From contig JAQXXM010000018.1 of NCBI GenBank assembly GCA_029226065.1, positions 1 through 52,680 of the forward strand: DNA of 52,680 nt, given 5' to 3'. Positions 21,418 through 40,985 of the stretch are shown here, piece after piece. The position numbers and the translations under genes were made by a program. Source of the DNA: Clostridiales bacterium. GTDB taxonomy: Bacteria; Bacillota; Clostridia; UBA1381. Every line of letters starts with the position of its first letter. Position 1 is the first letter of the stretch. The notes under the pieces were generated by a model that saw nothing but the letters and a program-made list of their open reading frames with translations, did not search any database and was not told the origin of the DNA.

Positions 21418-21545
21418 GGAGATGTGAAAAAACAGTGCCGATCGTTTTGGTGCGACTCTAAAAAGTCGGATTTTTAGCGTAGTAGTTTTAATGACTGCTG
21501 CGCTGTTTTTCTGTCAAACGGTCGGTGCTGTTTTTCACATCCCCT
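21418..21545. repeat. Modular palindromic element, copy B
   Basis: Outer arms of about 27 bases pair almost perfectly: GGAGATGTGAAAAAACAG at 21418 onward against the complement of the right arm ending at 21545, with the core CGGTCGGTGCTGTTTT at 21519-21534. Inside are a small CGACT/AGTCG hairpin and a second palindrome (AGCGTAGTAGT ... ACTGCTGCGCT, about 21476-21504) shared with copy D. It lies between the convergent ridA and XRE genes, 4 bases after the ridA stop, and may serve as a two-way terminator. Confidence 0.88.
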
Positions 21546-21575
21546 CAGGGACTACATCCTCATTTATATAATTAA

Positions 21576-21956
21576 TTATATTATCTTTCCATCTTTCTCA
21601 TACTTATCCCAATATTTTTTAAATAATGCATCGTAATAGCTGTCAGGAACGAATATCCCGTTTATGGTCTCGTTTATTTCACGCTCTTTGTTAACTAAAT
21701 ATCGGAAATGTTCCTTGTATATTTCAGATGCAGGGACATCGTATTCAAAATGGTCCGAATTAACTCCGAATATATCTACCGTATCGCAATGATACAGTTT
21801 GCAAAGTCTTATGAAATTAGTAACAGGAATGGGAGTTGAGCCGTTTTCATAGGATATCAGGGTAGCCCTTGATACGCCTATGTGCTTTGCTGCCTCCTCC
21901 TGGGTTATGTGTGCTTCTTTGCGTTTTAGTTCCAATTTCGTGTTCGGAAGCATCAT
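21576..21956 (-). CDS. XRE-family HTH transcriptional regulator
   Basis: A 126-residue protein with an N-terminal Cro/CI-type helix-turn-helix (about residues 8-62; EAAKHIGVSRATLISYENGSTPIP). The C-terminal ~60 residues are charged and unassigned. The start ATG shares a base with the fumarase stop (TAATG), so the two are translationally coupled; a second ATG follows immediately. Coupling suggests regulation of, or response to, the upstream operon, but target and signal are unknown. No recombination or phage genes lie nearby. Confidence 0.85.
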   Translation of the reverse strand: MMLPNTKLELKRKEAHITQEEAAKHIGVSRATLISYENGSTPIPVTNFIRLCKLYHCDTVDIFGVNSDHFEYDVPASEIYKEHFRYLVNKEREINETINGIFVPDSYYDALFKKYWDKYEKDGKII

Positions 21957-22798
21957 TATATCTCCCTTACCGCATGACGTGTAGCATGGCAGTTTATATT
22001 AACAGCTACAGGCAAGCCTGCAATGTGCGTCGGATATTGCTCAATATTTACTGCAAGTGCAGTAGTTGTTCCGCCCATGCCCTGCGGACCTATACCAAGC
22101 TTATTTATCTTTTCAAGAAGAGTTTTTTCAAGCTCGCAGTAGTAAGGCTTTTCGTTGCGTTTTGTAATGTCACGTGTCAAAGCTTTCTTTGAAAGCACTG
22201 CCGCTTTATCCATAGTACCGCCTATGCCTACTCCGACAACCATCGGCGGACACGGATTTGCTCCCGCCTTACGTACTGTTTCTATAACAAAGTCTATAAC
22301 TCCTTCTACGCCGTCAGACGGATTTAACATCTTAAGTCCGCCCTTGTTCTCACTGCCGAAGCCTTTTGGGGCAAATGTTATTTTTATTTTATCGCCGTCA
22401 GTATAATCATAATAAATAACTGCCGGGGTATTATCCTTTGTATTTACTCTATCAAGAGGATCGCCCACAACGGACTTTCTCAAATATCCGTCAGTATAAC
22501 CTGCGGCAACACCTTTATTTATTGCCTCAGTCAACGTATCGCCCTCAATGAACACCTCCTTGCCTATCTCAACAAAGAACACAGCCATACCTGTATCCTG
22601 ACAAATCGGTACTTCCTTTCTGTCGGCAATATCAGCGTTTGCCAAAAGATTTTTTAATACGCCCTTTGATACTTCTGATTTCTCGGTATTTATACCGTCC
22701 TCCAATGCCTTTCGTATGTCGGGGTTTAAGTGGCAGTTTGCACTTATGCACATTTCTCTTACTGCCTTTGTAATCTCCTCACTGTTTACTGTTCTCAT
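21956..22798 (-). CDS. Class I fumarate hydratase, alpha subunit (FumA N-terminal/TtdA type)
   Basis: A 280-residue Fe-S hydro-lyase subunit. Three cysteines suit cluster ligation: C66 in PICQDTG, C183 in NPCPP, C270 in NCHATRH. GIGGTMDKAAVLSKKAL is family-typical. In Clostridia this subunit normally pairs with a separate beta subunit to hydrate fumarate to malate, or to dehydrate tartrate. The beta gene usually follows directly; here an XRE gene overlaps the stop instead and no beta subunit exists in the window. Substrate (fumarate or tartrate) cannot be settled here. Confidence 0.9.
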   Translation of the reverse strand: MRTVNSEEITKAVREMCISANCHLNPDIRKALEDGINTEKSEVSKGVLKNLLANADIADRKEVPICQDTGMAVFFVEIGKEVFIEGDTLTEAINKGVAAGYTDGYLRKSVVGDPLDRVNTKDNTPAVIYYDYTDGDKIKITFAPKGFGSENKGGLKMLNPSDGVEGVIDFVIETVRKAGANPCPPMVVGVGIGGTMDKAAVLSKKALTRDITKRNEKPYYCELEKTLLEKINKLGIGPQGMGGTTTALAVNIEQYPTHIAGLPVAVNINCHATRHAVREI

Positions 22799-22831
22799 AA
22801 TTATAAATTCCTTTCTTTTTTATTTTTCTAA

Positions 22832-25800
22832 TCAGGCAACAAGTACCCATGATTGAAACCATTTTAAATATTTGTCCGCAAATTCCAGACTTATGGGCTG
22901 TCCGCTAAGCGTAGGATAGAACAGCACAAAAAGTCCAATTGCAATTAGTCCATATACCAAAGTACCGATAATGACTGCTTTTTTATTATTGGCACTGTCA
23001 TAAATTGTCTTGATGCTGTATACTATCATCAGCACAACAAATATCACGCACGGGAAATAATGGTATATATACGTTGTTCTCATCACAAGCATCCAGGGTA
23101 TATAGCTTGAAAAATAGCCTATGAGCAGGAACAACGGTACACTGTTTGAATCTGCCTTTATTTTATCATCAAACATCAATACTATAATAAACGTACCCAC
23201 TATTACTGTTGAATACAGCAATACACAGGGGAAAAGCCGTACAAGCTTTTCATTGTCTGCACCCACCAAATATGATACGGCACACAGCACTGCAAATATT
23301 GCCGAGTACACAACCGCATACGAATATTTATTTTTATTAAAGTAGTCTTTTTTCTTTAATGGTATAATTACAGCAAGTGCAATGTTATAAGCCACAGCAC
23401 CTATACCTATCCACCATACAGCAGGGTTACCGAATGCGCTTATTCCCTGTTTCATTCCGTTAGATAACGTATTTGCATAGTACCACATAGGTCTGTACAT
23501 TATGGGCCATTCATACCAGTGTGACGAGTAGGAATGAGTTGAGTTTACAACCGTTTTTCCGTGATACACAAGCATTGACTGTGCATTTGTAAATATCGTC
23601 TTTAGTCCCTCACCGCTCGGTGTAGCCATATACGGAATATAAGAAATAACGTATATTGCAAAGGGAACTGCTATAAACATAACACAGCAGAACAGCAATG
23701 TTATAACCGTATTACGCATAAAGCTGTTAATGACGTGTTTATGGCTTATTCCGTCTGTCTCGCCGTCAGGTGATAAAAGTGCATATCTGTATTCTCTGTA
23801 TCTGTAATACAGTGTTATAAAGAATATCAATGCAAGCCCGACACCTGCATATAGTCCTGTCCATTTTGATGCAACGGAAAGTCCGAAGAATATTCCCGAT
23901 ATGCCAAGCGGAACGAGAGTTTTATACAGCGGTGTGTCATAAAAGCTTTTTGTGTAATACTTATACATATAGTAATACATAAGCATAATAAACAGCGTCA
24001 CATACGTGTCTATAGTTGCAAGCCTTGTCTGAGTAAAGTGCATAAAATCAAATGTGTACAACACACAGCCCAGCACAGCAAGCCAACTGTATTTCATACA
24101 ACGCTTTGTCATAATATACACTATCGGCACCATTACAACACCTAAAAGCGTACCTACAAACCGCCATCCGAACGGCACCATACCGAAAATCATTATGCCT
24201 ATTCCCATAAGCACCTTGCCAAGCGGAGGATGTGTCCATTCATATACGCTCATACGGTGTAAAAACTCGTATGCTGTACGAGGATGATATATCTCGTCAA
24301 AATACGTACCCGACATATATGATTTATCTTTATCAAGGTAAGCCTGTTCGTCAAAGAGTGTATCTACTCCCTTATCAGCCGCATTAACAGGTGTGATAAC
24401 GTTTCCGTCACGGTCTATGAAGCACAGTTCCTTTAAATACACATCATTTGTTGGATCAGAAGAATTGTTAACACAATTTGTCGATACTTCAATGTATCTT
24501 GCCTTTATATCTTCATTCTCACGCATTGTCCAGGTAAATACCGAACCCTCCTCGATAATGTCATTATATACCGATACGCCGTTATTGTCAAGATATGAAA
24601 GTATAATATTTCTGTCCGTCTCAAGCTGACGGGCTCCAAGGAAGAACGCCGTTTGAGAAATTTCCTGTTCTTTCCCTAAATCTATATGCACCGTATTGCC
24701 GCACAGCGATGTTTCTGTTTGCGGCGCATACTTATCGCCAAGCTTGTAAAATGCCACACAGCCGTATATAACAGTTATTGCGAGCATTATACATATATCA
24801 ATTGCCGTTATTCTGACTGCCTTTTCGCTTAGTCTGAATGTGTAACGTTGACCTTTCTTTTGTGTGGACGATATCTTTTGTTTTGTGCTTGTTTTCGTGC
24901 ATACCTGAAAGCAAACCCACCCGAAAAGAATAATATTTATAATTGAAACTGCTATGATTACGGGCGAATTAAAGTATTTTGACGGATTACTCTCATATAC
25001 AAAAAGTACCCAGGCAATATTGAAAAACTGCGACAGCGAGAACAATCCGTATAAAATTGCATTTTTATTCGACGGAACTGATGCAAGTGCCATTATCAGC
25101 ATAAATATACCCGGGAATGCATAACGTTCATGCATTTTTGCCGACAGCATATATATACCGAAAAAGAGTATAAATGACGTCAGATAGTATCGGTCACTGC
25201 CTTTGCCTTTAAAAAAGACAACGCACGAGAACACAACAACCGCAACTATAAATACATAGCCGAGAACCGACACAAAGGGAGTCAACTCTGCCCAGTTAAG
25301 TCCCAACGCACCATATAAATTAAATGCGTTTACCGTCATATAATTGTATTGTCCAATTGTCGTGATGTACTGATCTATTATCACCCTTATGCCGTGGATA
25401 GGTGTATTACCGAACGGCATAAATGAAACAAGCATAAATACTAATGCACCAATTGCGCAAAGGACGGTTTTAATAAACTCTTTTTTATCGAATTTATTTT
25501 CCAGAAAATATTTATCAATAATTCCAAACACCAATACAGGTGCAAAGAACAATGCCTGAGGCTTTATCAGAATTGCCGCAGCAAATGCAAAAAATGACCA
25601 ATTCAATTTACGCTCCGATGCCAGATAAACTGCAAGCACACAGAAAAATCCCAAAATCGAATCAACCTGTCCCCACACGGCACTGTCGAGAATAACCGTA
25701 GGATTAAGCACCGCAAAAGCGGCTATAGCTGTTCCTGCAAGCTTTGAAAAATTCTTTGATGCAAGTCTGTATGCTAAATACCCCATTCCTAAATCTGCAA

Positions 25801-26167
25801 TAATTGCAGGAAGTTTCAGTACGAGCCATAGTACAGAGCCGTTAAGTGAAAAAACGTTTTTCACTGCACCTAATATATATAAAATATACAGATAGCCTGG
25901 AGGATAGTCGTGAAATCCGTCCGAAAGATAAAACTGTGACAGTCCGTTTTTAAACGCAATATCCGCCCAGCCTGTAAAACAGTTCATATCCGTTTCATGA
26001 CCTCTGTAGCATACGGCGGCAATCAGACGAATAACAAGAGCTAAAACAAGAACTATTGATATATATGTTTTATCTGATTTCTTTTTGAATAAATCACGTG
26101 CTGACGATACCCATGCCATGGTGCCGAAAATTCCGCTTATGATTATCATTCCGATTATTGCCGTCAC
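22832..26167 (-). CDS. Fused double GT-C glycosyltransferase with C-terminal PMT (GT39) domain
   Basis: A very long 1111-residue polytopic protein. The N-terminal half (about 1-425) is a GT-C-like module with ~10 membrane spans, acidic residues in the first outer loop (HETD, 57-60), DYPPG near 87-91 and a KPQ segment. A membrane span near 452-473 leads to an extracytoplasmic beta-rich segment (about 485-595), possibly a carbohydrate-binding-like fold. The C-terminal part (about 610-1111) is PMT-like, with FDEIYHPRTA at 623-632 and THPPLGK at 645-651. It probably moves sugars from polyprenyl phosphate donors outside the membrane. Acceptor unknown. It lies after a glucosaminidase and before fumarase. 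Confidence 0.85.
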   Translation of the reverse strand: MTAIIGMIIISGIFGTMAWVSSARDLFKKKSDKTYISIVLVLALVIRLIAAVCYRGHETDMNCFTGWADIAFKNGLSQFYLSDGFHDYPPGYLYILYILGAVKNVFSLNGSVLWLVLKLPAIIADLGMGYLAYRLASKNFSKLAGTAIAAFAVLNPTVILDSAVWGQVDSILGFFCVLAVYLASERKLNWSFFAFAAAILIKPQALFFAPVLVFGIIDKYFLENKFDKKEFIKTVLCAIGALVFMLVSFMPFGNTPIHGIRVIIDQYITTIGQYNYMTVNAFNLYGALGLNWAELTPFVSVLGYVFIVAVVVFSCVVFFKGKGSDRYYLTSFILFFGIYMLSAKMHERYAFPGIFMLIMALASVPSNKNAILYGLFSLSQFFNIAWVLFVYESNPSKYFNSPVIIAVSIINIILFGWVCFQVCTKTSTKQKISSTQKKGQRYTFRLSEKAVRITAIDICIMLAITVIYGCVAFYKLGDKYAPQTETSLCGNTVHIDLGKEQEISQTAFFLGARQLETDRNIILSYLDNNGVSVYNDIIEEGSVFTWTMRENEDIKARYIEVSTNCVNNSSDPTNDVYLKELCFIDRDGNVITPVNAADKGVDTLFDEQAYLDKDKSYMSGTYFDEIYHPRTAYEFLHRMSVYEWTHPPLGKVLMGIGIMIFGMVPFGWRFVGTLLGVVMVPIVYIMTKRCMKYSWLAVLGCVLYTFDFMHFTQTRLATIDTYVTLFIMLMYYYMYKYYTKSFYDTPLYKTLVPLGISGIFFGLSVASKWTGLYAGVGLALIFFITLYYRYREYRYALLSPDGETDGISHKHVINSFMRNTVITLLFCCVMFIAVPFAIYVISYIPYMATPSGEGLKTIFTNAQSMLVYHGKTVVNSTHSYSSHWYEWPIMYRPMWYYANTLSNGMKQGISAFGNPAVWWIGIGAVAYNIALAVIIPLKKKDYFNKNKYSYAVVYSAIFAVLCAVSYLVGADNEKLVRLFPCVLLYSTVIVGTFIIVLMFDDKIKADSNSVPLFLLIGYFSSYIPWMLVMRTTYIYHYFPCVIFVVLMIVYSIKTIYDSANNKKAVIIGTLVYGLIAIGLFVLFYPTLSGQPISLEFADKYLKWFQSWVLVA

Positions 26168-26195
26168 TTTTTACTTCACCTCATTTTCCCTTACA

Positions 26196-27965
26196 TTAAT
26201 GTCCAATAGTCATTGTGCTTGCTCCCTCTATTACAGGTGCACTCTCACCTGCATATACAGGCACTTCATAGCTTACCGATGCATTGCTAAACTGCGAGAA
26301 TAACCGTTCCATAATGGTCGACTGCGTTACTGCCCATGCAATATCTCCCGCATACAGGTGATTACCGGGATTATCAGGATTCCAACGCATTTTGTAGAGC
26401 GTGTTCTGTCTGCCTGATGATGCATTGATATAGTTCTTGCTTATCCATTCAGCACCGCCGTAAATTGCGGCTTCAGGTGCTGTCCAGCCCTTTGAATATG
26501 CCATTTTTGAGCCTGTGCCTACAGCGTCAGAGTCATAAGCGCCTATTCCAAACATATTATATACTCTTACACCGTTATAGTTGACACCTGTAGCAAGACG
26601 TGATGTGCCATAGCCCGTCTCAAGACACGCATGCGCTACAAGATACATCTCACTTATATTGTACCGTTTTGCCGCCTCTATAAATACATCGGCTTTACCG
26701 CTTAATATTCCTTTGCCGTCAAGGAATGATGCAAGCTTATCACGGCTTATACCATTATAGTGTGACAAATCCATAAACTGATACTTATATGAACCTGTCG
26801 AAAATTCGTTAGGATCAACATACAGTCTTGTACGGCTGTTATCCGCTGATTTAAGTCCGTTTCCGTCACTATATACAGGGTTTGTATTCATTTGAATACG
26901 TACCATTTCGTCAAGAGTGATGTCATACGTTACATACGTTACGCCGCCGGGTGCGGTATAGCTTTGACCTGTCTGGGGTGTAAATTCTGACTGCGATCCT
27001 TTTACGGTAATATTTATGCTGTCAAAAGCTCCATCCTTGCTTTTTGCAAATATTGTGACCTCGCCAGGACCTACTGCACGCACTAAGCCTGTCTGCGTTA
27101 CTGATGCAACGGAAGAATTCGTACTTGACCAGTCTATCAGTTTACTGCGTGCATTCTGCGGCGATACAGACGCAAAAAGCTGTAATAATTCACCCTTTGA
27201 TAATTCGTTTTTGTCTTTATTTACTATTGTAACCAATTCTGCCTTTATTGTCTTATTTATGACGTTTACAAAGCATTTTGCACTATATCCGCCATCAACT
27301 GTTGTTGCTACAACTTCTGCCATACCTGTTGACACTGCCTTTAAATGACCTGTCTGGTCTACCTCAACTATATTCTTGTCTTTTGAGTACCATTTTATAG
27401 TTGTGTTTGATGCATTTTCAGGGTATATTACGGGTATTACACGTACAGCGACATCTGTAGTATACATATTAAGCGAACTGTTTTCTATATAGAACCCCTC
27501 AACAGGCTGTATTATCTGCAAATACGCTTTTGACGTAAGACCTGTATTTGCTTCTGTTACGGTTATCTCCACACTGCCTGTTTTTTTTGCGGTTATATTT
27601 CCGTAACTGTCAATCTCGGCACACTCGGTATCGGATGATGCGAATGTGATTACACCTTCGCCTAAAACTATAGGATACAGCTTCGCATCAAGTTTTACTG
27701 TGGTAACCTCGCCTGTTTTTAGTTTTACCGTATTGTCATACCAGGAAAGCACCAACCCCGAATTGGGTACAGTTTCATCAAAAAAATATGAAATATCGTT
27801 TGGAAATCGAGTAGCAAGTCCGCCCTGCGCCTCTTTTTTATCAATTGAATCATTATGCGTTGTTATAGCTAAAACAAGAAATAAAATTACGCCAAAAACG
27901 ACACCGCCGTACGGCGCTATCTTTATCCATGGCAAATTCTTTATCTTGCTCACAAGCTCACGCAT
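26196..27965 (-). CDS. Membrane-anchored cell wall endo-beta-N-acetylglucosaminidase with three Big2 domains
   Basis: 589 residues. A signal anchor spans about 20-36. Three bacterial Ig-like (Big2) domains follow at about 75-152, 155-236 and 240-322, each ending in a G-x-A/V-E-V-T-type strand. A glucosaminidase domain (GH73 type) covers about 395-565, with candidate catalytic Glu449 in HACLETGYGTS and the NMFGIGAYD segment. Such enzymes cut the glycan strand between GlcNAc and MurNAc. The Big2 stalk would place the catalytic domain in the wall. It lies 15 bases after murT, suggesting joint expression with envelope genes. Confidence 0.9.
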   Translation of the reverse strand: MRELVSKIKNLPWIKIAPYGGVVFGVILFLVLAITTHNDSIDKKEAQGGLATRFPNDISYFFDETVPNSGLVLSWYDNTVKLKTGEVTTVKLDAKLYPIVLGEGVITFASSDTECAEIDSYGNITAKKTGSVEITVTEANTGLTSKAYLQIIQPVEGFYIENSSLNMYTTDVAVRVIPVIYPENASNTTIKWYSKDKNIVEVDQTGHLKAVSTGMAEVVATTVDGGYSAKCFVNVINKTIKAELVTIVNKDKNELSKGELLQLFASVSPQNARSKLIDWSSTNSSVASVTQTGLVRAVGPGEVTIFAKSKDGAFDSINITVKGSQSEFTPQTGQSYTAPGGVTYVTYDITLDEMVRIQMNTNPVYSDGNGLKSADNSRTRLYVDPNEFSTGSYKYQFMDLSHYNGISRDKLASFLDGKGILSGKADVFIEAAKRYNISEMYLVAHACLETGYGTSRLATGVNYNGVRVYNMFGIGAYDSDAVGTGSKMAYSKGWTAPEAAIYGGAEWISKNYINASSGRQNTLYKMRWNPDNPGNHLYAGDIAWAVTQSTIMERLFSQFSNASVSYEVPVYAGESAPVIEGASTMTIGH

Positions 27966-27980
27966 TTTTACACTTCCTTA

Positions 27981-29327
27981 TTATTGTTCCTTAACCTCAT
28001 CGGAATAATTTTTTTCAAGTTTCTTCAGAATTTCCTCTGTAGGATACAGAGCTGTATAATTTACCATAACATAAACTATTTCCGACTCTGTTTTCAGTGC
28101 AGAAACGATTGCATCTCTCATATTATCCGTCACTAAATCAACCGCCACATCAGCATATTTAAACCGCAAGGCTATATCGTAAAGACGTATTCCCGTTACC
28201 GAGAGTGTCTTGAGGTTTTCGTTTTTCAGCTTATCAAAGCCAACGTCCCATATCCATGACACATCCTCACCGTCATTAACACCGTCATTTATTGCAACTA
28301 TAACGTCCTTTTTACGTGTGTCGCTATTTACGGTTGTGATTGCCTGATTAAAGCCCGCAGGATTTTTGGAAAGGCTCAAAACGACAGGTTTATTAAACTT
28401 AAACTCCTGCATTCTGCCCGACTGCGGTTTGTAATTTGATAATATGTCAACGAAGTTATCAGTATTCTCACCTGCCGCCTGTAATGCCACATACGCCGCA
28501 GACAAGTTTAATATATTATAAAAGCCTTTATAATTCACTTCAATCTTTTCACCGTTAATCGAAAATCTGAGCGGTTGTGTTAGCTCTACGTCCTTTATTT
28601 CATAATCAGGGTTACGGCGTTTATGCGAGCATTGACTGCAGTAGAAATCACCTAATTGACTGTAGTGGTGATAATTATACGAAAGCTCCGTACCGCAAAC
28701 AGGACATAGATTGCCTTCTCTTATAGTTTCTTCCTCGTCTAAAACTTTTTCCGACACGCCGTAATATATAGCTTTTACGTCGTCTCTTGCTCCGAATTGC
28801 GAGCATACGGGGTCATCGGCGTTTAGTACAAGAGTTACACCTCTTGCAAGGTCTATTGCATCGTCAATCAGCTTAACCGTTCCCTCAATTTCGCCATAAC
28901 GGTCAAGCTGGTCCCGAAACAAATTTGTTATAACCATAATATGGGGTTTTATCTGTTTAAATATAATCCTTGCGTATGCCTCATCTATTTCAAGACAGGC
29001 ATAATCTGCATCAATTCTGCCCAACAAATCCGATGCTTCAATATATGCCGTTGCAACGCCTGAGAGCATATTCGCTCCTATGCGGTTACACATAACCTTG
29101 TAGCCCTTTGATTCAAGTGCTGAACGTATTACGTTGTTTGTTGTAGTCTTTCCGTTAGTGCCGCAGGTAACTATTATTTTCTTGCGGACACGATTATTCA
29201 TATCGCTTATTAGCGACGGACAAAGCTTGAGTGCCATAACACCCGGTGATGATGATGTACGTCTGTGAGTGATTTTTCCGACGAGAAAAACGAGTTTTCC
29301 TATCCATATTGCCGCTAATCGTTTCAT
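27981..29327 (-). CDS. murT: Lipid II isoglutaminyl synthase catalytic subunit MurT
   Basis: 448 residues from the chosen ATG 29327 (an ATG at 29357 overlaps the previous stop but lacks a ribosome site; AAAGGAAG precedes 29327). The Mur-ligase ATP loop GTNGKTT is at 56-62, and the MurT-specific zinc ribbon (CPVC at 208-211 and CSQC at 230-233) interrupts the central domain; a DUF1727 C-terminal domain follows. MurT activates the lipid II alpha-carboxyl of D-Glu for amidation by the glutaminase GatD. gatD normally sits next to murT; it is not adjacent here. Neighbours are the C11-like lipoprotein and the glucosaminidase. Confidence 0.93.
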   Translation of the reverse strand: MKRLAAIWIGKLVFLVGKITHRRTSSSPGVMALKLCPSLISDMNNRVRKKIIVTCGTNGKTTTNNVIRSALESKGYKVMCNRIGANMLSGVATAYIEASDLLGRIDADYACLEIDEAYARIIFKQIKPHIMVITNLFRDQLDRYGEIEGTVKLIDDAIDLARGVTLVLNADDPVCSQFGARDDVKAIYYGVSEKVLDEEETIREGNLCPVCGTELSYNYHHYSQLGDFYCSQCSHKRRNPDYEIKDVELTQPLRFSINGEKIEVNYKGFYNILNLSAAYVALQAAGENTDNFVDILSNYKPQSGRMQEFKFNKPVVLSLSKNPAGFNQAITTVNSDTRKKDVIVAINDGVNDGEDVSWIWDVGFDKLKNENLKTLSVTGIRLYDIALRFKYADVAVDLVTDNMRDAIVSALKTESEIVYVMVNYTALYPTEEILKKLEKNYSDEVKEQ

Positions 29328-33192: not shown

Positions 33193-33221
33193 ATTATACT
33201 CTAATTTGACGATTATGTCAA
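33193..33221 (-). promoter_or_regulatory. Consensus sigma-A promoter of the ricT operon
   Basis: Minus strand: perfect TTGACA (33216-33221), 17-base spacer, perfect TATAAT (33193-33198). This is the best match to consensus in the window, so strong constitutive expression is expected. The leader is about 40 bases. Confidence 0.88.
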
Positions 33222-33243
33222 CTGCGTAAAATTAAACAAATTA

Positions 33244-34254
33244 TTAACGGTTTGTAAGCTCGGTTATGTTATTTATCTTAATTGATATAGTTCCGTCCTC
33301 ATTTGTAATAAGCTCCATAAATTCAGGATTTTTATAATGCTCGGGCGGAAATGACAGTTCAACGCCCGTATTTGTGGTAAGCTTAATATTCTCGGTCATT
33401 TTCTTCGTTATGTACTTATTTACCTCTACCTTTTCAGGCACTCCTGCTTTTTCCATTTTTTCTACAAACTCGTCACGTACAGACGGCATACCCTCAAACA
33501 CCTTATCAGCAACCTTATGAGTATCTATATACTCATAATTTTCCTCCTCTATACTCTCTGTTACGTATTCCTTTATTCTTGCACGTGTTTCAAGCTGGTC
33601 GGCGCCGTTTTCAAGTGCTACTTTTTTTGCAATACGTGTTACAGTATTTGCACTTTCCCTTGGTGATATTTCATATTCGCACTCAAGGAGCAGTTCTGCT
33701 ATGATGTCGACTGTCTCGCCGTCTATCTTACTGTTTTTACCCAGATACTCAATCTTTTTTGTATCAAGATCTATAAATGCACACTCGCTTAGCTTATTTG
33801 TAAGTGATGGCAAAATTGCGTAGTGGTTTATTATATTGTTTCTGACCTTGCCTTCGTTCTGTACTACAGCGTGGGTAAAGCCTGTCTTATTATCACACTT
33901 CAAAAGCCCGAAAATCCTTGAGTCATTTGATACGAACTCCACAGCTATTAAATCACAGGCTTTTGGTTCTTCGCTTGATGAGATAGCATCATACAAGCGC
34001 TCTGCGGCGTTTTTCGACAAATCCGTAAAGCTTATATCTCCGTTGTTATACTGTTCTATTTTAGCCTTGAATCCGCTTGTTTCTTTGAAATCAGCCTTTC
34101 TTAGTGCGGCTGATTCATACAACTTTTCAATATGTGTTGTGATAAATGTGTTTATCTGTGCATCGCTTATATCTAACATTTCATCAGAAAACACTCCCAC
34201 ACCTGAATTTATATCAAGAATATGCAATATTGCATTTTTTAATCCTACTATCAT
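33244..34254 (-). CDS. Nucleoid-associated protein, NdpA/YejK family
   Basis: 336 residues of the 37-kDa nucleoid-associated family. Diagnostic parts are the N-terminal ILHILDINSGVGVFSDEML, a central FGLLKCDNKTGFTHAV strand pair, ILPSLTNKLSECAFIDLDT, and a C-terminal region (GVELSFPPEHYKNPEFMEL). The family binds DNA in Gram-negatives, where it was described; its role in Clostridia is undefined. It follows the SLH-hydrolase gene by 29 bases and is the last gene of the operon that starts at 39159. AAAGGAG precedes ATG 34254. Confidence 0.85.
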   Translation of the reverse strand: MIVGLKNAILHILDINSGVGVFSDEMLDISDAQINTFITTHIEKLYESAALRKADFKETSGFKAKIEQYNNGDISFTDLSKNAAERLYDAISSSEEPKACDLIAVEFVSNDSRIFGLLKCDNKTGFTHAVVQNEGKVRNNIINHYAILPSLTNKLSECAFIDLDTKKIEYLGKNSKIDGETVDIIAELLLECEYEISPRESANTVTRIAKKVALENGADQLETRARIKEYVTESIEEENYEYIDTHKVADKVFEGMPSVRDEFVEKMEKAGVPEKVEVNKYITKKMTENIKLTTNTGVELSFPPEHYKNPEFMELITNEDGTISIKINNITELTNR

Positions 34255-34283
34255 ATTAAACCATTAACTCCTTTCAAACTTGC

Positions 34284-35639
34284 TTAATTCAAAAAATCAT
34301 ATACTGTCTTTGACAAATCCGTAAACTTGACTATTTGTCCGTAGGCATTTTCCAAGCTGTCACCGATTATTACAAGTATGTATGTACCGCTCGGTGCATA
34401 CACAATTGCCGCATCACCCTGCATATAATCAAGCTCTCCCGTTTTATTGGCAACTGTCACTCCATCAGGCACTCCTGACGGAATTTTTTGGACGTGTTGC
34501 TGTTGTTTAAGCAGTGACAGTATTTTCCCCGACATTTCTTCATTTACAATATCGCCGTTAATGATACGTCTTAAATACATTCCGCAGTCATTTACCGATG
34601 TAAAGTTGTAGTTTTTATGACTACCCTGATAAAATTGTCCTGTATCAATAAAACCTGCGACATTTGCAACCTTTGTAACCTCCTGCATACCTCTTGAATA
34701 ACTGCCGCCTATTGATTTTGCGAGATATTTCCACGCATCGTTGTCGCTGTATATAATCATTTTGTACAATTCATTATCAATTGTTTCAGTTTCTGCCATT
34801 ACGCCGTCTGCAATTTTCTGATACACCGTCTGTGCCACAAAAAGCTTTATAAGGCTTGCCGAATATACCTGGTGGCTGTTTATCGAAATTGTTTTGCCTG
34901 TATTTATATCCTCAAAATACAGCGACCAATCCCCCTGCCATGCAGACATTTTCTCGTTTAGCGTTGTTTCAAGAACTGCATAATCAGGTATTTTTATTTT
35001 AAGTCTTTCCGACGGCTCAAGATACATCGAAATAAGCTTTACCGCCTCACCCCTTGTAAGTATTTTATCAGGCTCATACGCTAAAGCTATGCTTTTATCA
35101 AGTGTTATACCGAGGTTATACATCATAATCACTTCATCTGCATATTTATACATTTCCTCATCAGGCAAAAACTCGGCATTGTTTAAAAGCTCTCCGTCTT
35201 TTGCAAGAGATGATATTGAAAATGCCATCTGCTCACGGCTTACAGGCTCACTGCCACAGGGCATAGACTCATCCCACAATTTATACTTTATTGCCCTTTT
35301 TATGTAGTTTTCACTCTGGTTGGGGTTATAGTGAGGGAAGGAAATATCTATTCCCTTTTTATCTTCATACAGGTTCACTACAGCGTATGCCGCCTCACAC
35401 GCTGAAAATGGCTCATCCACGCCGTATTTTCCGTCTATTCCGCCAATTATAATGCCTTTTTCATACAAAGCGATTATATCTGCGCTGTTTTCCATATCAA
35501 CGTCGCTCCATACAGGGAACAACGTCTCATCGTCCTTTTTTGTACTTTGCGGTATAATGGCAGTTATTCCTGCAAATATTACCGCTAAAATTGCCAGAAA
35601 TCTGAAAAATACTGCTGTACTGTGCCTCACTGTTTTCAT
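34284..35639 (-). CDS. SLH-domain serine hydrolase, class A beta-lactamase-like
   Basis: 451 residues. A signal anchor (about 11-30) is followed by S-layer homology repeats (about 45-95, 105-150, 158-210) and a class A beta-lactamase/transpeptidase-fold domain (about 225-450). Serine active-site motifs are intact: SLIK at 262-265, SDN at 298-300, KTG at 399-401. SLH repeats would hold it on secondary wall polymers. It may be a D-Ala-D-Ala hydrolase or an esterase rather than a resistance enzyme; I could not find a clear general-base Glu as in true class A enzymes. Its ATG overlaps the recD2 stop (ATGA). Confidence 0.87.
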   Translation of the reverse strand: MKTVRHSTAVFFRFLAILAVIFAGITAIIPQSTKKDDETLFPVWSDVDMENSADIIALYEKGIIIGGIDGKYGVDEPFSACEAAYAVVNLYEDKKGIDISFPHYNPNQSENYIKRAIKYKLWDESMPCGSEPVSREQMAFSISSLAKDGELLNNAEFLPDEEMYKYADEVIMMYNLGITLDKSIALAYEPDKILTRGEAVKLISMYLEPSERLKIKIPDYAVLETTLNEKMSAWQGDWSLYFEDINTGKTISINSHQVYSASLIKLFVAQTVYQKIADGVMAETETIDNELYKMIIYSDNDAWKYLAKSIGGSYSRGMQEVTKVANVAGFIDTGQFYQGSHKNYNFTSVNDCGMYLRRIINGDIVNEEMSGKILSLLKQQQHVQKIPSGVPDGVTVANKTGELDYMQGDAAIVYAPSGTYILVIIGDSLENAYGQIVKFTDLSKTVYDFLN

Positions 35640-37849
35640 CTCTTTTCCTTTAATAATCTCTCACATAATCCCGTAAATCGTTTCGTATATGAATTATTGT
35701 GTATCATACTGTCTATTACACGCTCGTTTCCTACAAGTATAACCATAGTTTTTGCTCTGGTTATTGCAGTGTAAAACAGATTTTTTGTCATTAGCATCGG
35801 CATATACGAAAACACAGGTATTATTACATATCCAAACTCACTGCCCTGACTTTTATGGACAGTTATTGCGTAAGCAAGATCAATATCCTCAACGTCTATA
35901 AACGGATACTCAACGACTTTTCCGTCATCAAAAGTTATTACCATATACCGTTCCTGTTCGTGTATTGAATTAATAACGCCCATATCTCCGTTATATATAC
36001 CCATACCTGCCTCACCGTTTGCAGTGGTGTATTCCATATCATAGTTATTGCGTGTCTGCATAACCTTGTCTCCTTCACGGAATACGGTTTGAGAATATTT
36101 ATATTCTTTTTTCGTATTGCACGGTGGATTTATGCCTAACTGCAACTGTTTATTAAGCTCTATCGTTCCTGTTATACCTTTTTTTGTAGGCGAAAGCACC
36201 TGGATATCTGTCATTGGATTTATACTGTATGTGTTTGGCAAACGCCTTGAATACAGCTCCGTGACGGTCACTGCAACCTCCTGTGCAGTGTTACGACGCA
36301 TAAAAAAGAAATCACGTGTTCTGTCTTTTAGCTCCGGCATTTCACCGTTATTTATCTTGTGTGCATTAAGTATTATTAGACTCTCCTCCGACTGTCGGAA
36401 AATATCGGTTAGTTTAACGGTGGGAACCGTTTCTGACTCTATTATATCCCTCAGAACGTTTCCTGCACCTACAGACGGAAGCTGATCGCTGTCGCCTGAC
36501 AGAATTATTCTGCCGCCCGGCTTTACGGCACGTAAAAACGATGCCATAAGTGATGTATCCACCATACTTGCCTCATCTAATATTATAACATCACTGTCAA
36601 GAGGATGCTCCTCATCATAAGTAAATATATGGGTATTGCCCATCATCTGCGCGCCTAACAGACGGTGCATTGTTTTCGCCTCATAGCCCGTAAGCTGTGT
36701 CATACGCTTTGCGGCACGGCCTGTAGGTGCTGTCAACGCCACTTTAATGTTAAGTCCTCGCATTATAGTTATTATTGCATTGATAGTTGTGGTTTTACCT
36801 GTACCAGGTCCGCCCGTAAGTATCATCAGTCCTGATGAGAGTGCAGTCACAACAGCATCACGCTGTTTCTTTGCAAGCTTAATATCGTGCTCCTGCTCGA
36901 ATTTGTCAACCTCAGTCTCTGCACAGCTTGCGCTTATTGCATATCTGCTCTCTGACTGCGTAATTTTATATATTCTTTCTGCAATATACTTTTCATCGTG
37001 ATACGTTCCGTAAAGATACAATACTTCCGTATTATCTACAGTGTCGGATATTATATCACGCTCCGCTAAAAGCTCCGAAACTGCATTTTCCGCCTCAATA
37101 TCTGTTATACCAAGATTGTATACGGTATGCTCTATCAATAAATCTTTTGGCATATATACGTGTCCGTTTGTATATGATGCGTCACGCAGGAAATATTTAA
37201 GTCCTGACTTTATGCGTTCAGGACTGTTTTTAGGTATCCCTAAATTATACGCAACCATATCTGCGGTTTTAAAGCTTATTCCGTCGACGGAGTTTGCAAG
37301 TGAATACGGATTTTCTTTTATCACATTGACAGAATTGTTACCGAATATTTTATGTATTCTTATTGCCGTATTGGCACTAATATTGTACTGTTGCAGAAAC
37401 ATTACAATATTCTGCACACTCCGCTGTTCGTTAAAGGAATTACAGATTTTCTTAGCTCTTTCTTTGCCAATTCCCTTAATCTTTGCCACTCGCTCACATT
37501 CGTTTGTAAGCACATCAAAAACCGACTCACCAAACTCATCATAAAGCTTATTTGCCGTTGCCTCACGTACACCCTTAATCACACCCGAGGAAAGGTATCG
37601 TATGATAGCTGTCTTTTCCGAGGGCATTATTGTCTCGTACAGCTCCACCTTGAACTGCTCGCCGTATTCGGGATGAATTACCCAATCTCCCGTAAGTGAT
37701 GCTTCATCACCCGGCCTTATTGTCGGCATATAGCCTACAGCAAAGAAGTTCCCCTCCTCCTGGGAGGTGACGTTGCATATAACGTAGCCATTATCGGGGT
37801 TTTGGTACACTATGCTGTCTACCGTACAAGCTATAACTATTCTACTCAT
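35636..37849 (-). CDS. recD2: RecD2-type ATP-dependent DNA helicase
   Basis: 737 residues, superfamily 1B 5'-3' helicase independent of RecBC. N-terminal OB-like and helix-hairpin-helix regions (about 1-290) precede the motor with Walker A GGPGTGKT at 346-353, IILDEAS (motif II) and a C-terminal motif VHKSQGSEF. The frame is open upstream to 37987, but that part overlaps the neighbouring gene and is non-homologous; ATG 37849 gives MSRIVIACTVD, the usual start. ATG overlaps the decarboxylase stop by ATGA, and the recD2 stop overlaps the next start in the same way, a tightly coupled operon. Confidence 0.95.
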   Translation of the reverse strand: MSRIVIACTVDSIVYQNPDNGYVICNVTSQEEGNFFAVGYMPTIRPGDEASLTGDWVIHPEYGEQFKVELYETIMPSEKTAIIRYLSSGVIKGVREATANKLYDEFGESVFDVLTNECERVAKIKGIGKERAKKICNSFNEQRSVQNIVMFLQQYNISANTAIRIHKIFGNNSVNVIKENPYSLANSVDGISFKTADMVAYNLGIPKNSPERIKSGLKYFLRDASYTNGHVYMPKDLLIEHTVYNLGITDIEAENAVSELLAERDIISDTVDNTEVLYLYGTYHDEKYIAERIYKITQSESRYAISASCAETEVDKFEQEHDIKLAKKQRDAVVTALSSGLMILTGGPGTGKTTTINAIITIMRGLNIKVALTAPTGRAAKRMTQLTGYEAKTMHRLLGAQMMGNTHIFTYDEEHPLDSDVIILDEASMVDTSLMASFLRAVKPGGRIILSGDSDQLPSVGAGNVLRDIIESETVPTVKLTDIFRQSEESLIILNAHKINNGEMPELKDRTRDFFFMRRNTAQEVAVTVTELYSRRLPNTYSINPMTDIQVLSPTKKGITGTIELNKQLQLGINPPCNTKKEYKYSQTVFREGDKVMQTRNNYDMEYTTANGEAGMGIYNGDMGVINSIHEQERYMVITFDDGKVVEYPFIDVEDIDLAYAITVHKSQGSEFGYVIIPVFSYMPMLMTKNLFYTAITRAKTMVILVGNERVIDSMIHNNSYTKRFTGLCERLLKEKR

Positions 37850-39159
37850 ATTATCACTTCTATTGTTCCGGCGTTTAATCCGTTTATTTTCGCTCCCATA
37901 TTTTCTAATTCGGATATATATTCTATCTCCTGATGTCCTATTCTCTGACCCATAACAATAATTGCAGTACCGGGAGGATACATACATGCGGTAACCGCAG
38001 ACACTCTCCCCTCTGCATCACACAGCCTGATGCGTTCTGTCCTTGCAAACATTCCGTTTTGCGGTTCTATAATTCCCGCTGGGCATTTCGGTTTTATAAG
38101 TTCTTTGTTTTCTGTTTTTACATCAAGATTTTCCGTAATTTTAAGTAATGCGTGATAAAGACTTATAAAGTCGGAATGACGGTTTTGCAGTGTTGCAATA
38201 AGTATGATATTTGATGCATCAGCCATTTCGACGTCTATACAATAGCGTTCGGAAAGCATTTTATCCACTTCAAATCCTGTTATATTATAATTTTTAAAAT
38301 TAAGCACTATTCTTGTAGCATCATCATTTTTAAGAACGCAAATCTCTGTACGCTCACCTATCACCCTTTTAAATTGCACACATTCATTTATTATGTCACT
38401 GTAATCACATTCGCAAAGAGAAGCTCTTGCAAAGTCAGCAGATGCAGCTATTATATATGACGGACTTGATGTGTGTACAGCACAAATACAGCGTTTTATG
38501 CGTGATATATCCACCCTGTCGGTACATATATGCAAATATGACGCACCTGTGAATGCATTAAGCGTTTTATGTGCGCTGTGGCATACTATGTCCGCACCCT
38601 GTACCGCCGCCGACTGCGGCAATCCGTATTTACCCAAAAAATGAGCGCCGTGTGCCTCATCGACAAGAAGCGGTATACCTTTATTTCGGCAAATGTGCGA
38701 TATCTGCTGTATGTCTTTTGTCACTCCGTAATAGTTCGGTGACGTAACAAGCACAGCTGATACACCGTCAGTATCTAATTCTTGAAAGCTGTCTGTTAAT
38801 TTAAGTCTTATTCCTGCAACGGCACATATATTGATAACGCTGATGTGGCAGTCCGAACTCGCAAGAAGCGTGTCACCCGCATTTAGTACGCCCAATATCA
38901 TTGCCTGTATACAAGACGTAGAACCACAGGTCAAGATAAAGCTTTCCCGAGTCTGATACAGCTTGCTTAAAAGTCTGTTCGCTTTTGCAGTCGTTGGGTT
39001 GTCAAAATCTAATAAATTCAGGGTTTCCGACAGTTCCGTAACATCGCATATACAGGGATTTATCGTAAGAGTGCGCATATTTTTATGTCCCGGCATTGCA
39101 AAGGATATTCTGTTTTGATTATGATATTCAGTTAGCTTTTCATAAATCGGTATATCCAT
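37846..39159 (-). CDS. Orn/Lys/Arg decarboxylase-fold PLP protein (YaaO/SpeA-like)
   Basis: 437 residues, fold type I PLP enzyme. Key features: AMPGHK near 21-26, DVTEL, CGSTS near 78-82 for phosphate binding, DEAHGAHF at 167-174, and the Schiff-base Lys198 in SAHKTL. The segment that usually reads R-N-x-H-K-S in this family is SDCHIS here (102-107), a divergence at the cofactor site. Substrate (Arg, Lys or Orn) is not readable. Agmatine from Arg would feed the speB operon 4 kb away, which is an inference. First gene of the recD2 operon. Confidence 0.85.
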   Translation of the reverse strand: MDIPIYEKLTEYHNQNRISFAMPGHKNMRTLTINPCICDVTELSETLNLLDFDNPTTAKANRLLSKLYQTRESFILTCGSTSCIQAMILGVLNAGDTLLASSDCHISVINICAVAGIRLKLTDSFQELDTDGVSAVLVTSPNYYGVTKDIQQISHICRNKGIPLLVDEAHGAHFLGKYGLPQSAAVQGADIVCHSAHKTLNAFTGASYLHICTDRVDISRIKRCICAVHTSSPSYIIAASADFARASLCECDYSDIINECVQFKRVIGERTEICVLKNDDATRIVLNFKNYNITGFEVDKMLSERYCIDVEMADASNIILIATLQNRHSDFISLYHALLKITENLDVKTENKELIKPKCPAGIIEPQNGMFARTERIRLCDAEGRVSAVTACMYPPGTAIIVMGQRIGHQEIEYISELENMGAKINGLNAGTIEVII

Positions 39160-39185
39160 TACAGCACCCCATTCCCATAATATCT

Positions 39186-39214
39186 ATTATACAAAAAAAT
39201 AACGTAAATGTAAA
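39186..39214 (-). promoter_or_regulatory. Sigma-A promoter of the decarboxylase-recD2 operon
   Basis: Minus strand: -35 TTTACA (39209-39214), 17-base spacer, -10 TATAAT (39186-39191). The leader is only about 20 bases, with GGGGTG before ATG 39159. Confidence 0.75.
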
Positions 39215-39266
39215 GTGTTTTTTTGACTCAAAAGGCTTAAAAAAAGCTGTTGCAAAACTACAACAG

Positions 39267-39338
39267 CCTGTAGGTGTTTATTAATTCTCGCCAAATGGTC
39301 AGTAGTCTTAAGGCGGTCGGTGCTGTTTTCTCCTACAG
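39267..39338. repeat. Modular palindromic element, copy C1
   Basis: Outer arms CCTGTAGG (39267-39274) and CCTACAG (39332-39338) enclose about 57 bases including the exact core CGGTCGGTGCTGTTTT at 39314-39329, next to the right arm as in the other copies. It is shorter than copies B and D and lacks the AGCGTAGTAGT palindrome. Confidence 0.7.
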
Positions 39339-39343
39339 AGCGA

Positions 39344-39481
39344 GGGATGCGGCAAAATAGTGCAGAACGAACGAAAATCGCCGAGTAGCATAGCTACGAG
39401 GGTTATCACGAACTGTACTCAGGTACGTGAGTGACGTTTTTCGTTCGTAGCACAGCGGTCGGTGCTGTTTTGCTACATCCC
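39344..39481. repeat. Modular palindromic element, copy C2
   Basis: Left arm begins GGGATGCGGCAAAATAG (39344), right arm ends GCTACATCCC (39481); core CGGTCGGTGCTGTTTT at 39456-39471. The interior differs from B and D: ACGAACGAAAA pairs with TTTTCGTTCGT, and GTAGCATAGCTAC forms an inner hairpin. The right end lies 4 bases beyond the stop of the minus-strand gene ending at 39486. Confidence 0.85.
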
Positions 39482-39485
39482 GATT

Positions 39486-40706
39486 TTATTTGTCGTCTGA
39501 TGAGAACAGTACCCATAGAAGTATAAATAGACCTATAAGCACTCCGCCACCTATAAGTGCAAGAGGCTTCCTCAATGACGGTGAAATCATCTGCGGTACG
39601 TCAAGCGGTTTTTCCACATCAAGCTTATTCACCTTTATAAACGGCTCGCTCTTAAGCTCCATTCCGCCTGATTTTTCAAGCACAAGCTTGTTTTTCATAT
39701 ATGCTTTTTTAATGCTGTCAAGCTCGGTATCGGAAAACGGTATGCAGTCATTGCGTACATTCAAAATCTGATAATCGTCCGTAACCTTATCGGTACGTCG
39801 TAAAACTGTACTGTTATAGAAGCATAAATCCGTACTGTAACGTACGTAGTACAGCTCGTCACCCAAGTCATATATATTCGTTATTGCGTTGAACTTTCCA
39901 TTGCCGTTGTGTCTGTTTACGGCAAGTGAATATTCCGCCATTGTTGAATAATTGCCTATATCAAAGGTCTCGGTAAATTCCGCAGTACGTGACAGAACAC
40001 GTGAGAGTTTTTCATGCTCGTCATTCGTTATATCGCCAAGAATGTCGGTATAGCCAACATTTTGTGCCGCACCATCCTTTAATAACGAGAAAAATATTGA
40101 AAGATTGCCATTAAAATTAGAAATATCCACCTCGGGGTGCAGATATTTCGACGTAAAGCTTACAACACCAAACAACAGTTTCTGTCCAGGTGGCTCTACA
40201 CGCATAAACGCATCATTTTCAATTACTGTATAATACTCCTCCGATACAAGATCATTGCCCATATATCTGTTAAATACAACGTATCTGTAATCTCCGCCTT
40301 CGGCGAGTGCAATTTCTGCTATTTCTCCGTCTTGTGTCTTTAAAGGCTCTTTTACGGTTGTTACAATTTTTGCAGACCGTTCCTCGGCATCGTATCTATA
40401 TATATCTACCGATATAGAATTGGTGTTACCATCTGTATAGAACATCACAAGACATGGCTCAACAGCATTTTCAAAATTAACAAGGTCTGCATAAAACACG
40501 CCTGTAGGGCAAGTTGTAGATATATCTATATATCCGTCACTATTTTCGGTGGAAAGAGTTCCGCAATTTGACATAGCGGAATTAAGCGTATATGCATAGG
40601 CACTCGACCACACTTTATCTTTAGCATACACTGAGGGAATAATCATAGAAGCGACTATAAATAACGCACAAAAAACAGACATAATCCGCATTAACTGTCT
40701 TTTCAT
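39486..40706 (-). CDS. Secreted membrane-anchored protein of unknown function
   Basis: 406 residues from ATG 40706, preceded by GGGGAGGGG; the frame continues upstream to 40742 but without signal-peptide character. Signal peptide about 1-28 with a cleavage-like VYA/KD site, a ~345-residue strand-rich extracellular region with paired cysteines (CGTL, CPTG), and a C-terminal membrane span (about 382-402) followed by a short acidic tail SSDDK. I recognise no family. Type I topology suggests an envelope sensor or scaffold. Monocistronic, with its own promoter and repeat copies C1/C2 at its 3' end. Confidence 0.78.
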   Translation of the reverse strand: MKRQLMRIMSVFCALFIVASMIIPSVYAKDKVWSSAYAYTLNSAMSNCGTLSTENSDGYIDISTTCPTGVFYADLVNFENAVEPCLVMFYTDGNTNSISVDIYRYDAEERSAKIVTTVKEPLKTQDGEIAEIALAEGGDYRYVVFNRYMGNDLVSEEYYTVIENDAFMRVEPPGQKLLFGVVSFTSKYLHPEVDISNFNGNLSIFFSLLKDGAAQNVGYTDILGDITNDEHEKLSRVLSRTAEFTETFDIGNYSTMAEYSLAVNRHNGNGKFNAITNIYDLGDELYYVRYSTDLCFYNSTVLRRTDKVTDDYQILNVRNDCIPFSDTELDSIKKAYMKNKLVLEKSGGMELKSEPFIKVNKLDVEKPLDVPQMISPSLRKPLALIGGGVLIGLFILLWVLFSSDDK

Positions 40707-40728
40707 CGCATTCCCCTCCCCCATCATA

Positions 40729-40740
40729 GTATACGTATAC
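40729..40740. promoter_or_regulatory. Perfect 12-bp palindrome near the transcription start
   Basis: GTATACGTATAC lies directly downstream of the -10 element at 40747-40752 and upstream of the GGGGAGGGG ribosome site. Its position over the expected start site would suit an operator. No regulator is assigned. Confidence 0.5.
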
Positions 40741-40746
40741 ACACAT

Positions 40747-40775
40747 ATTATATTACTTTATGTATTACAATTCAA
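40747..40775 (-). promoter_or_regulatory. Sigma-A promoter of the secreted protein gene
   Basis: Minus strand: -35 TTGAAT (40770-40775), 17-base spacer, -10 TATAAT (40747-40752). Predicted start near 40740, inside or beside the GTATACGTATAC palindrome. Confidence 0.72.
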
Positions 40776-40850
40776 CGTTTTTCGACTTAATTATCTATGA
40801 CATATACTTTACAATTGTTACATTATGTGGAGATACATACAAAAATAAGG

Positions 40851-40985
40851 GGGGATGTAAAAAAGTCAAAAAGCCCTACGGGTATGCAAAAACATAGCGT
40901 AGCAGTCAGCAAAACTACTACGCTATAAAAAGTCTAACTTTTGGGGGTCACATCACAACGGTCGGTGCTGTTTTTTTACAGCCCC
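40851..40985. repeat. Modular palindromic element, copy D
   Basis: Outer arms GGGGATGTAAAAAA (from 40851) and TTTTTTACAGCCCC (to 40985); core CGGTCGGTGCTGTTTT at 40959-40974. The inner palindrome TAGCGTAGCAGT ... ACTACTACGCTA (about 40894-40926) is shared with copy B but inverted relative to the core. Right end is 2 bases beyond the nspC stop. On the minus strand the structure is followed by CCTTATTTTTG, so it may also terminate nspC transcription. Confidence 0.88.

Follow-up and report, generated by a model that had tools for sequence, protein, structure and literature searches.

The 52,680-nucleotide stretch of Clostridiales DNA analyzed here (the window) carries palindromic units behind the stop codons of several genes, and it raises the question of whether these units function in the 3' UTR or are mobile elements with a target specificity, the two readings offered in a preliminary description of this DNA. 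Our analysis partly supported these readings. Exact matches to the 16-mer CGGTCGGTGCTGTTTT were found at all four positions reported earlier (21519, 39314, 39456, and 40959), all on the + strand. With up to 3 mismatches, the window holds 7 matches, against 0.31 expected from shuffled sequences. Across the 1.84 Mb genome the 16-mer is found exactly at 9 places and with up to 3 mismatches at 69 (the 9 included), versus 0 and 9, respectively, for a reversed control pattern. The four 16-mers of the window are members of a genome-wide repeat family. The features of the window are as follows, those marked (s) having been read directly on the sequence.

9916..9964, no strand assigned: minimal hairpin A, with arms GGGGCTGTAAAAA and TTTTTACATCCCC and no core, behind murE (stop 9971-9973) (s)
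21418..21561, no strand assigned: copy B, between a RidA-family gene (+) and an HTH-type gene ending at 21576 (-), with arms GGAGATGTGAAAAAACAGTGCCGATCG and CGGTCGGTGCTGTTTTTCACATCCCC (s)
21471-21513: inner terminator-like stem of copy B (s)
21519..21534, + strand: 16-mer core of copy B, exact match
near 21551-21561: second right arm of copy B, ACTACATCCTC (s)
39268..39339, no strand assigned: copy C1, the second, partial unit of a tandem array, with arms CTGTAGG and CCTACAG (s)
39314..39329, + strand: 16-mer core of copy C1, exact match
39343..39481, + strand: copy C2, with arms at 39472-39481 and 39344-39353
39354..39369, - strand: partner motif CGTTCTGCACTATTTT of copy C2
39456..39471, + strand: 16-mer core of copy C2, exact match
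40850..40985, no strand assigned: copy D, behind nspC (stop 40988-40990) (s)
40975-40985 (read on the - strand) and within 40850-40867: outer arms of copy D, GGGGCTGTAAA and ACTTTTTTACATCCCC (s)
40887-40929: inner terminator-like stem of copy D (s)
40959..40974, + strand: 16-mer core of copy D, exact match

The gene before copy B encodes a RidA-family protein (Pfam Ribonuc_L-PSP) and ends with a TAA stop at 21411-21413; copies B and D together form the inverted repeat I1. Folding of copy B (21418-21544) gave -63.8 kcal/mol on the + strand (z -10.3) and -43.8 on the - strand (z -7.1). The corresponding values for copy C2 were -59.0 (z -5.8) and -53.2 (z -6.9), and copy D had z-scores of -3.1 (+ strand) and -4.4 (- strand). 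The strand modelled for copy C2, the + strand, is the antisense strand of the gene that ends at 39486. The arm model R1 matched copy C2 at 39354-39450 on the + strand (89.3 bits, E 5e-20), and this was the sole good match over the window, all others having E 0.09 or worse; copies B and D are without the arm that R1 models.

The earlier observation as a whole was confirmed in part. The distances from the stop codon reported for copies B (4 nt), C2 (4 nt), and D (2 nt) hold when read on the sequence, but minimal hairpin A, placed 4 nt after murE, begins 6 nt after it if the arm is taken as GGGGATGT. The core of copy C1, which stands second in a tandem array, begins 156 nt from the stop that anchors C2. 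Each core was also said to face a complementary left arm. The outer arms of copy D are indeed complementary, but copy D has no complementary copy of the 16-mer. In the full-length form, AAAACAGCACCGAYCG pairs with CGTTCTGCACTATTTT, which is not its exact complement, as seen for C2 at 39354-39369.

The arm model matched 60 of the 391 Clostridia genomes sampled, corresponding to 35 of 222 genera, with at least 10 matches in 31 of these 60 carriers. A strict two-edge pattern gave 33 copies at 30 of the 58 class-wide loci; the remaining 28 loci, all matching R1, were added and their closing stem was sought by complementarity. No Rfam family matched the window at its gathering threshold, and in 25 loci scanned with E values allowed up to 0.5-1, every match fell far short of the threshold of its family. 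A strongly covarying structured element found in about one-seventh of the sampled Clostridia genomes, with no near-threshold Rfam match in the copies scanned, marks a gap in how gut bacteria are annotated. Among the matches listed in the open-licence literature on stop-codon palindromes and structured RNAs, we found no description of the family. Spread by phages or plasmids was considered and dropped, as three exact patterns gave 0 matches in viral contigs and BLAST against plasmids and against phages, each with one copy as the query, likewise gave none.

The complete unit, present in many copies in uncultured gut Clostridia, is around 200-250 nt long with a branched fold. In an alignment of 30 dissimilar copies, the 63 pairs of the model were paired in 91.5% of cells, and compensatory cells numbered 233, against a mean of 69.8 in shuffled alignments and 29-80 in slid controls. 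Judged from these alignments, the repeated unit has a conserved and covarying branched fold. Its outermost part is a variable stem; inside this lie a conserved stem (AAAAUAGUGCAGA/UCUGUGCAUUUU) and then two arms, which are predicted to meet in a three-way junction. The first arm reads GAACGGACRAA..GUUYGUUCGUAG with a GGCGUAC/GUACGUC hairpin, the second carries a terminator-like hairpin, and tandem U.G/G.U pairs are conserved in the fold. The outer arms are inverted repeats whose sequence differs among copies with compensation (helix 1). When the best structure of each strand was folded separately, G.U cells outnumbered A.C cells by 165 to 35 on the antisense strand of the anchor gene, versus 39 to 57 on the other. 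If the pairs folded for the other strand are instead read on the antisense strand, only 57 G.U and 39 A.C cells result, so the contrast between the strands rests on a few conserved columns.

A few copies are cut at one end (L163, L229), and others are chimeric (L005, L026, L028). In many copies, but not in all, the left arm has an ATG with a stop codon immediately after it. A coding role for the arm, readable by eye as DVKKQHRPFDGK in L005 and L006, was rejected, an in-frame stop lying just upstream in L005 (also by eye).

Integron attC sites lie behind stop codons, fold on the antisense strand, conserve structure over sequence, and carry the outer boxes RYYYAAC/GTTRRRY. An attC-like element, in which a tyrosine recombinase would recombine the folded single-stranded form antisense to the gene before it, would fit the position right behind the stop, the likely antisense-strand fold, and a structure that is kept while the sequence varies. 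By eye, however, the consensus of alignment A2 had no conserved RYYYAAC/GTTRRRY boxes at the aligned outer ends, and the anchor genes, nspC among them and murE in the case of the minimal hairpin, are not cassettes. We regard this reading as highly improbable.

Proximity to stop codons extends beyond the copies of the window: 31 of 57 stops in the first set and 32 of 44 in the class-wide set lie within 10 nt of the element. Compared with random placement in the same gaps, 27 of 50 usable cases were within this distance (6.7 expected), and class-wide 19 of 27 were (4.4 expected), an excess near stops in both. Neither a lack of such an excess nor a restriction to four copies was thus observed, the copies being genome- and class-wide. 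The distance itself overlaps that of ordinary hairpins, which, at orthologous sites assumed to have no element, start at a median of 15 nt after the stop, with 10 of 25 within 10 nt. Against this hairpin control, the stop distances did not differ in the first set (p 0.34) and differed modestly in the class-wide set (p 0.011; p 0.020 when two shared copies are left out). Much of the stop anchoring may follow from the element holding the place of a terminator. The element also appears sometimes to supply the stop codon itself, the gene call ending on its own TAA or TGA (e.g. in L009, L021, L026, and L071).

The fixed orientation proposed earlier is reduced to a bias, with 40 versus 20 non-convergent sites over all sets; the first set alone (23 versus 15) was not significant. 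Among the copies with a type assigned to each flank, 1 of 67 (first set) and 1 of 30 (class-wide) lay in divergent gaps, although such gaps make up 856 of the 3256 intergenic bases of the window. Terminator-like sites were found in 44 of 91 copies on the sense strand of the anchor gene, against 12-18 after shuffling, and in 24 on the opposite strand (21-29 after shuffling). Could the copies simply be unrelated terminators of similar look? The A-tract, stem, and T-tract are shared, and ordinary hairpins here also lie close behind stops, but the long sequence and fold shared across families contradict this reading, which we find hardly credible.

Copies are mostly found at non-orthologous genes. 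They cluster by genome: 54 of 75 copies, from 10 genomes, required 9 label changes, the minimum possible, against a shuffled mean of 35.9, although several of the genome groups have weak branch support. A core motif was present at 2 of the 20 loci matched in G012, at 2 of 14 in G003, and at 0 of 6 in G002; of the 20 loci matched in a sister species, 18 are without the motifs. Because of this clustering and of the sister-species loci without motifs, the element probably moves. At L027, L025, and L019, a simple hairpin stands in its place in the sister species, with flanks of similar length. One should note that gene conversion among old copies would likewise cluster them by genome, that absence at a matching locus may reflect loss, and that some matching loci may be paralogues. 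No target-site duplication was visible at L027, the only locus with both flanks well aligned, and no gene-bearing copy was evident. The earlier idea of a mobile palindrome with target specificity is hence supported as to mobility by the clustering and turnover, while the orientation is not fixed and the stop distance is only partly special.

These data also bear on a cis-acting class of 3'-UTR RNA (a terminator, an mRNA stabiliser, or a protein-binding RNA), kept in each gene for its function and copied through ordinary duplication and gene conversion. Deep covariation with class-wide spread, the position behind stop codons, and the sense-strand enrichment of terminator-like sites would all agree with such a class. 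The little sharing at matching loci (2 of 20), an orientation biased rather than fixed, and a G.U-bearing strand antisense to the anchor gene make it unlikely.

If the element moves, which protein could move it? An insertion-sequence reading was rejected: the end GGGGCTGTAAARAAAGTC, which we take to resemble IS1182-type transposon ends, was found with up to 3 mismatches at 12 places in G000 versus 5 for the control in a comparison of positions only. A Y1 (RAYT-like) transposase acting on a REP/BIME-type repeat was another candidate, as REPs likewise lie behind genes, mostly outside divergent gaps, and may provide a stop codon (PMC3733652). Y1_Tnp domains were present in 31 of 60 carriers and 182 of 331 non-carriers (p 0.67, no association). 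In 29 of the 60 carriers they were not found; this genome is one such case, and so is G140 (98% complete, at least 10 matches). As the size and branched fold are also unlike those of 20-40 bp REPs, we consider this very unlikely. A SINE-like retroelement copied in trans by a reverse transcriptase would account for an RNA-like covarying fold with conserved tandem U.G/G.U pairs and for the cut and chimeric copies. RVT_1, however, showed no association (22 of 60 carriers versus 146 of 331 non-carriers; p 0.32) and was not found in 38 of the 60 carriers, among them G103 (100% complete) and the genome studied here, making this origin scarcely probable. Neither domain was found in 18 of the 60 carriers.

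We favor, with somewhat better than even confidence, the reading that the copies of the window are members of a family of non-autonomous mobile palindromes that spans the class and takes the place of the transcription terminators of genes. In this reading, a trans-acting factor would recognize a single-stranded form, most likely that of the anchor gene's antisense strand, and this form would be placed into, or exchanged with, the hairpin normally found behind the stop. The internal hairpin of the element would then end transcription of the anchor gene, and for this reason its insertion would be harmless and kept. More tentatively, and with odds that we put well below even, gene-less spread without a Y1 transposase or reverse transcriptase could reflect a host process that swaps terminator hairpins behind stops, the antisense folded strand being what moves (a "terminator-hopping hairpin"). 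If the element does move, it rewrites gene 3' ends, with their stop codons and terminators, across a large class. It also poses the question of which enzyme puts a gene-less hairpin into the terminator slot.

Compared with known systems, the element resembles integron attC sites in its place behind the stop, its likely antisense-strand fold, and the weight on structure over sequence; it differs in having ends without R boxes and chromosomal, non-cassette anchor genes. A MITE of a DDE insertion sequence would have constant terminal inverted repeats shared with an autonomous insertion sequence, and a target-site duplication; the outer arms of the element are inverted repeats that vary between copies with compensation. 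With REP/BIME repeats the element shares being repeated, non-autonomous, palindromic, intergenic, behind genes, mostly outside divergent gaps, with G-T pairing in stems and a possible stop codon (PMC3733652 and PMC2817692). Unlike the 20-40 bp REP hairpin, it is around 200-250 nt long and branched, and it is found in the class Clostridia without an association with Y1 transposases. The REP palindrome has a GTAG or CGTC tag at one end; in alignment A2, by eye, a TAG precedes one inner arm and the ends of the element are without a conserved tag. The Ype repeats of Yersinia and Efa repeats of Enterococcus are, like the element, larger than REPs, near gene 3' ends, and discussed as RNA elements (PMC1590033); compared by description, the element differs in its presence in 35 of 222 sampled genera and its covarying structure. 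Finally, the A-tract/T-tract terminators of low-GC Firmicutes (same source) have the same AAAA-stem-TTTT arrangement, close behind stops and in convergent gaps, whereas the element has a terminator-like site in only 44 of 91 copies and is set apart by its conserved sequence, multi-helix fold, and multi-copy spread.

The exact 16-mer core that the preliminary description had reported four times in the window was recovered at all four positions, a count beyond chance. The window copies are not the only ones, as the genome held nine exact sites and 69 at ≤3 mismatches (those nine included), compared with none and nine for the reversed control pattern; some of the three-mismatch matches fall inside genes and are due to chance. 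When the copies were read by sequence, the 16-mer proved to bound a larger unit on one side, the opposite edge being CGTTCTGCACTATTTT (22 matches in the same genome at ≤2 mismatches versus six for the control). Two arms are enclosed by these edges, and the external stem varies by locus yet is largely complementary.

The suggested search of relatives, with a covariance model, was then carried out. The left-edge pattern was present in 4 of 61 genomes, our own among them. Within the order, 16 of 95 genomes and 8 of 27 genera had the right edge, genome G003 alone contributing 45 copies, and the control pattern gave five matches in total. Among the matches listed for an exact 19-mer scan, the carriers included uncultured Clostridia, ‘Ruminococcus’ and Oscillospiraceae assemblies as well as Candidatus Ornithomonoglobus merdipullorum, and many came from ruminants. 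The model of one arm, built from 33 sequences (34 were picked from 75, and locus L070 was left out), matched 60 of the 391 Clostridia genomes and 35 of 222 genera; in 31 of these 60 genomes the matches numbered at least ten. The family is widespread and apparently undescribed in the literature searched.

Genes were called with a hexamer finder of our own, for which the window was the training set. The flanks of 75 instances were stop/stop (28), stop/start (23), start/stop (15), start/start (1) or incomplete (8), and left-side stops lay at a median of ~7 nt, 45 of 57 within 25 nt and 31 of 57 within 10 nt. The stop-proximal location proposed from the window copies holds: 27 of 50 usable left stops were ≤10 nt away against 6.7 expected under uniform placement in the same gap, and none of 20,000 simulations gave a count as high. 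By the same comparison, neither stops on the right nor gene starts on the left were in excess in this set. Class-wide, a strict two-edge pattern yielded 33 copies at 30 of 58 loci; a stop lay ≤10 nt from the folded strand's 3′ end in 20 of 29 cases (20 of 27 when the gene filter was looser), and 19 of 27 usable cases compare with 4.4 expected under random placement. All 28 remaining loci had matches to the covariance model of one inner arm, 30 in number, three running off the contig end and four having a closing stem that scored under the limit; the other 23 gave 13 of 16 stops at ≤10 nt. Since one of these loci, L434, coincides with L357, whose arm is interrupted by another element, the count becomes 12 of 15, and 32 of 44 class-wide in all. 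Orientation, initially described as fixed, was only favoured in one direction (40 versus 20 at non-convergent sites, p 0.013). In several copies the stop of the called gene (TAA or TGA) belongs to the element itself.

Ordinary hairpins served as a distance control. From 40 loci fetched, 33 were regarded as element-free, four with a core motif and three unclear ones (L147, L152, L161) being omitted. The strongest post-stop hairpin exceeded the score limit at 25 of the 33; one of these sites, L165, may hold an element remnant. Because these hairpins begin at a median of 15 nt past the stop, and within 10 nt in 10 of 25, the element sits only somewhat closer to the stop than a terminator does (p 0.34 in the first set, p 0.011 class-wide). 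Behind some stops we also saw simple hairpins that match or approach GGGGCTGTTGC-loop-GCAACAGCCCC, often without a T run:

Window, behind the gene ending at 47075, minus strand: simple hairpin
Window, behind the gene ending at 52629, plus strand: simple hairpin
Loci L141, L148 and L155 of the sister species G012, behind stops: simple hairpins

The element may use these as targets, or they may be what is left of collapsed copies. At L027, where the flanks align on either side, a simple hairpin of the relative takes exactly the position that the element has in our genome, and no flank duplication was seen; the same arrangement, with similar flank lengths, occurs at L025 and L019. G012 carried a core motif at 2 of the 20 loci that matched, G003 at 2 of 14 and G002 at none of six, although a few of these loci may be paralogues, such as that for the AraC-like gene of L018. 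In a tree of 54 copies, ten genome labels required nine changes, the minimum, versus 35.9 when shuffled, with support for single groups of 52 to 100. Terminator-like sites on the strand of the anchor gene, whose stop adjoins the element, were present in 44 of 91 copies (chosen by length from 108) versus 12–18 in shuffles.

By eye, a second related hairpin element starting GGGGCTGTTGCATTTAGCGCAGACCG and ending TCTGCATCTAAATTCATTCAGCCCC was noticed at L026 and L028 in our genome and at L147 in G012, where its sequence appears to provide the end of a conserved gene. L005, L026 and L028 are chimeras, in which the first element is followed, past a TTTTTGAAG-like stretch, by sequence resembling the beginning of that second family.

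RNAalifold, applied to 58 of the 75 instances picked by length, gave 67 pairs for the strand beginning AAAATAGTGCAGAACG; 40 of these pairs showed two or more Watson-Crick types. A second set comprised the 30 copies left from the 75 instances and the 33 class-wide copies of the two-edge pattern (L407 and L412 being common to both) after filtering by length and discarding those >80% alike; here 63 pairs were formed in 91.5% of cells, and compensatory cells numbered 233 versus a shuffled mean of 69.8 and 29–80 in slid controls. G.U and A.C cells were 165 versus 35 on the folded strand and 39 versus 57 for the opposite fold, whose pairs amount to 57 G.U and 39 A.C when read along the folded strand. 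As a few conserved columns supply most of this contrast, the assignment of the fold to one strand is likely, not proven. For copy C2, the sole model match in the window, the modelled strand is antisense to the gene that ends at 39486, and single-sequence folding of C2 did not clearly separate the strands. Copies B (RidA-family gene) and D (nspC) share a 43-nt inverted repeat (21471–21513 and 40887–40929, 84%), so that both contain the same terminator-like stem, oppositely oriented, which suggests that inner modules have been exchanged. A norspermidine/polyamine synthesis gene cluster was also observed in the window:

37846–44180: the cluster
37846: decarboxylase-like gene, matches below cut-offs
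40988: nspC
42114: carboxynorspermidine synthase-like gene, below the curated cut-off
43323: agmatinase

A closing edge lay ≤420 nt from the arm in 96 of 115 cases, 88 of them at 75–125 nt. Ten of the other 19 arms were too close to a contig end and nine were inspected; no gene-bearing form of the element was evident in this survey. One of the nine was interrupted:

L357, near 7408–8000 (the same place as L434): inner arm broken, with an open frame bearing DUF4368 (Pfam, E 3.6e-24) beyond it

DUF4368 occurs at the C-terminal end of large serine recombinases, and the folded repeat seems to have been interrupted by insertion of another mobile element. Across the genomes of the class sample, neither Y1 transposase nor reverse transcriptase was associated with element carriage. 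Absence from a single genome is weak evidence, since genomes are often incomplete; more weight attaches to G140 (98% complete), where neither was found, and to G103 (100% complete), which had two Y1 matches and no reverse transcriptase. Three exact patterns gave no copy in viral contigs, and BLAST with a single copy per search gave none in plasmids or phages.

The nature and location of the family are well supported, and we infer its way of moving. Although tests of REP membership do not place it among the REPs, and no insertion-sequence partner was apparent, the family works like a REP-type or MITE-type repeat.
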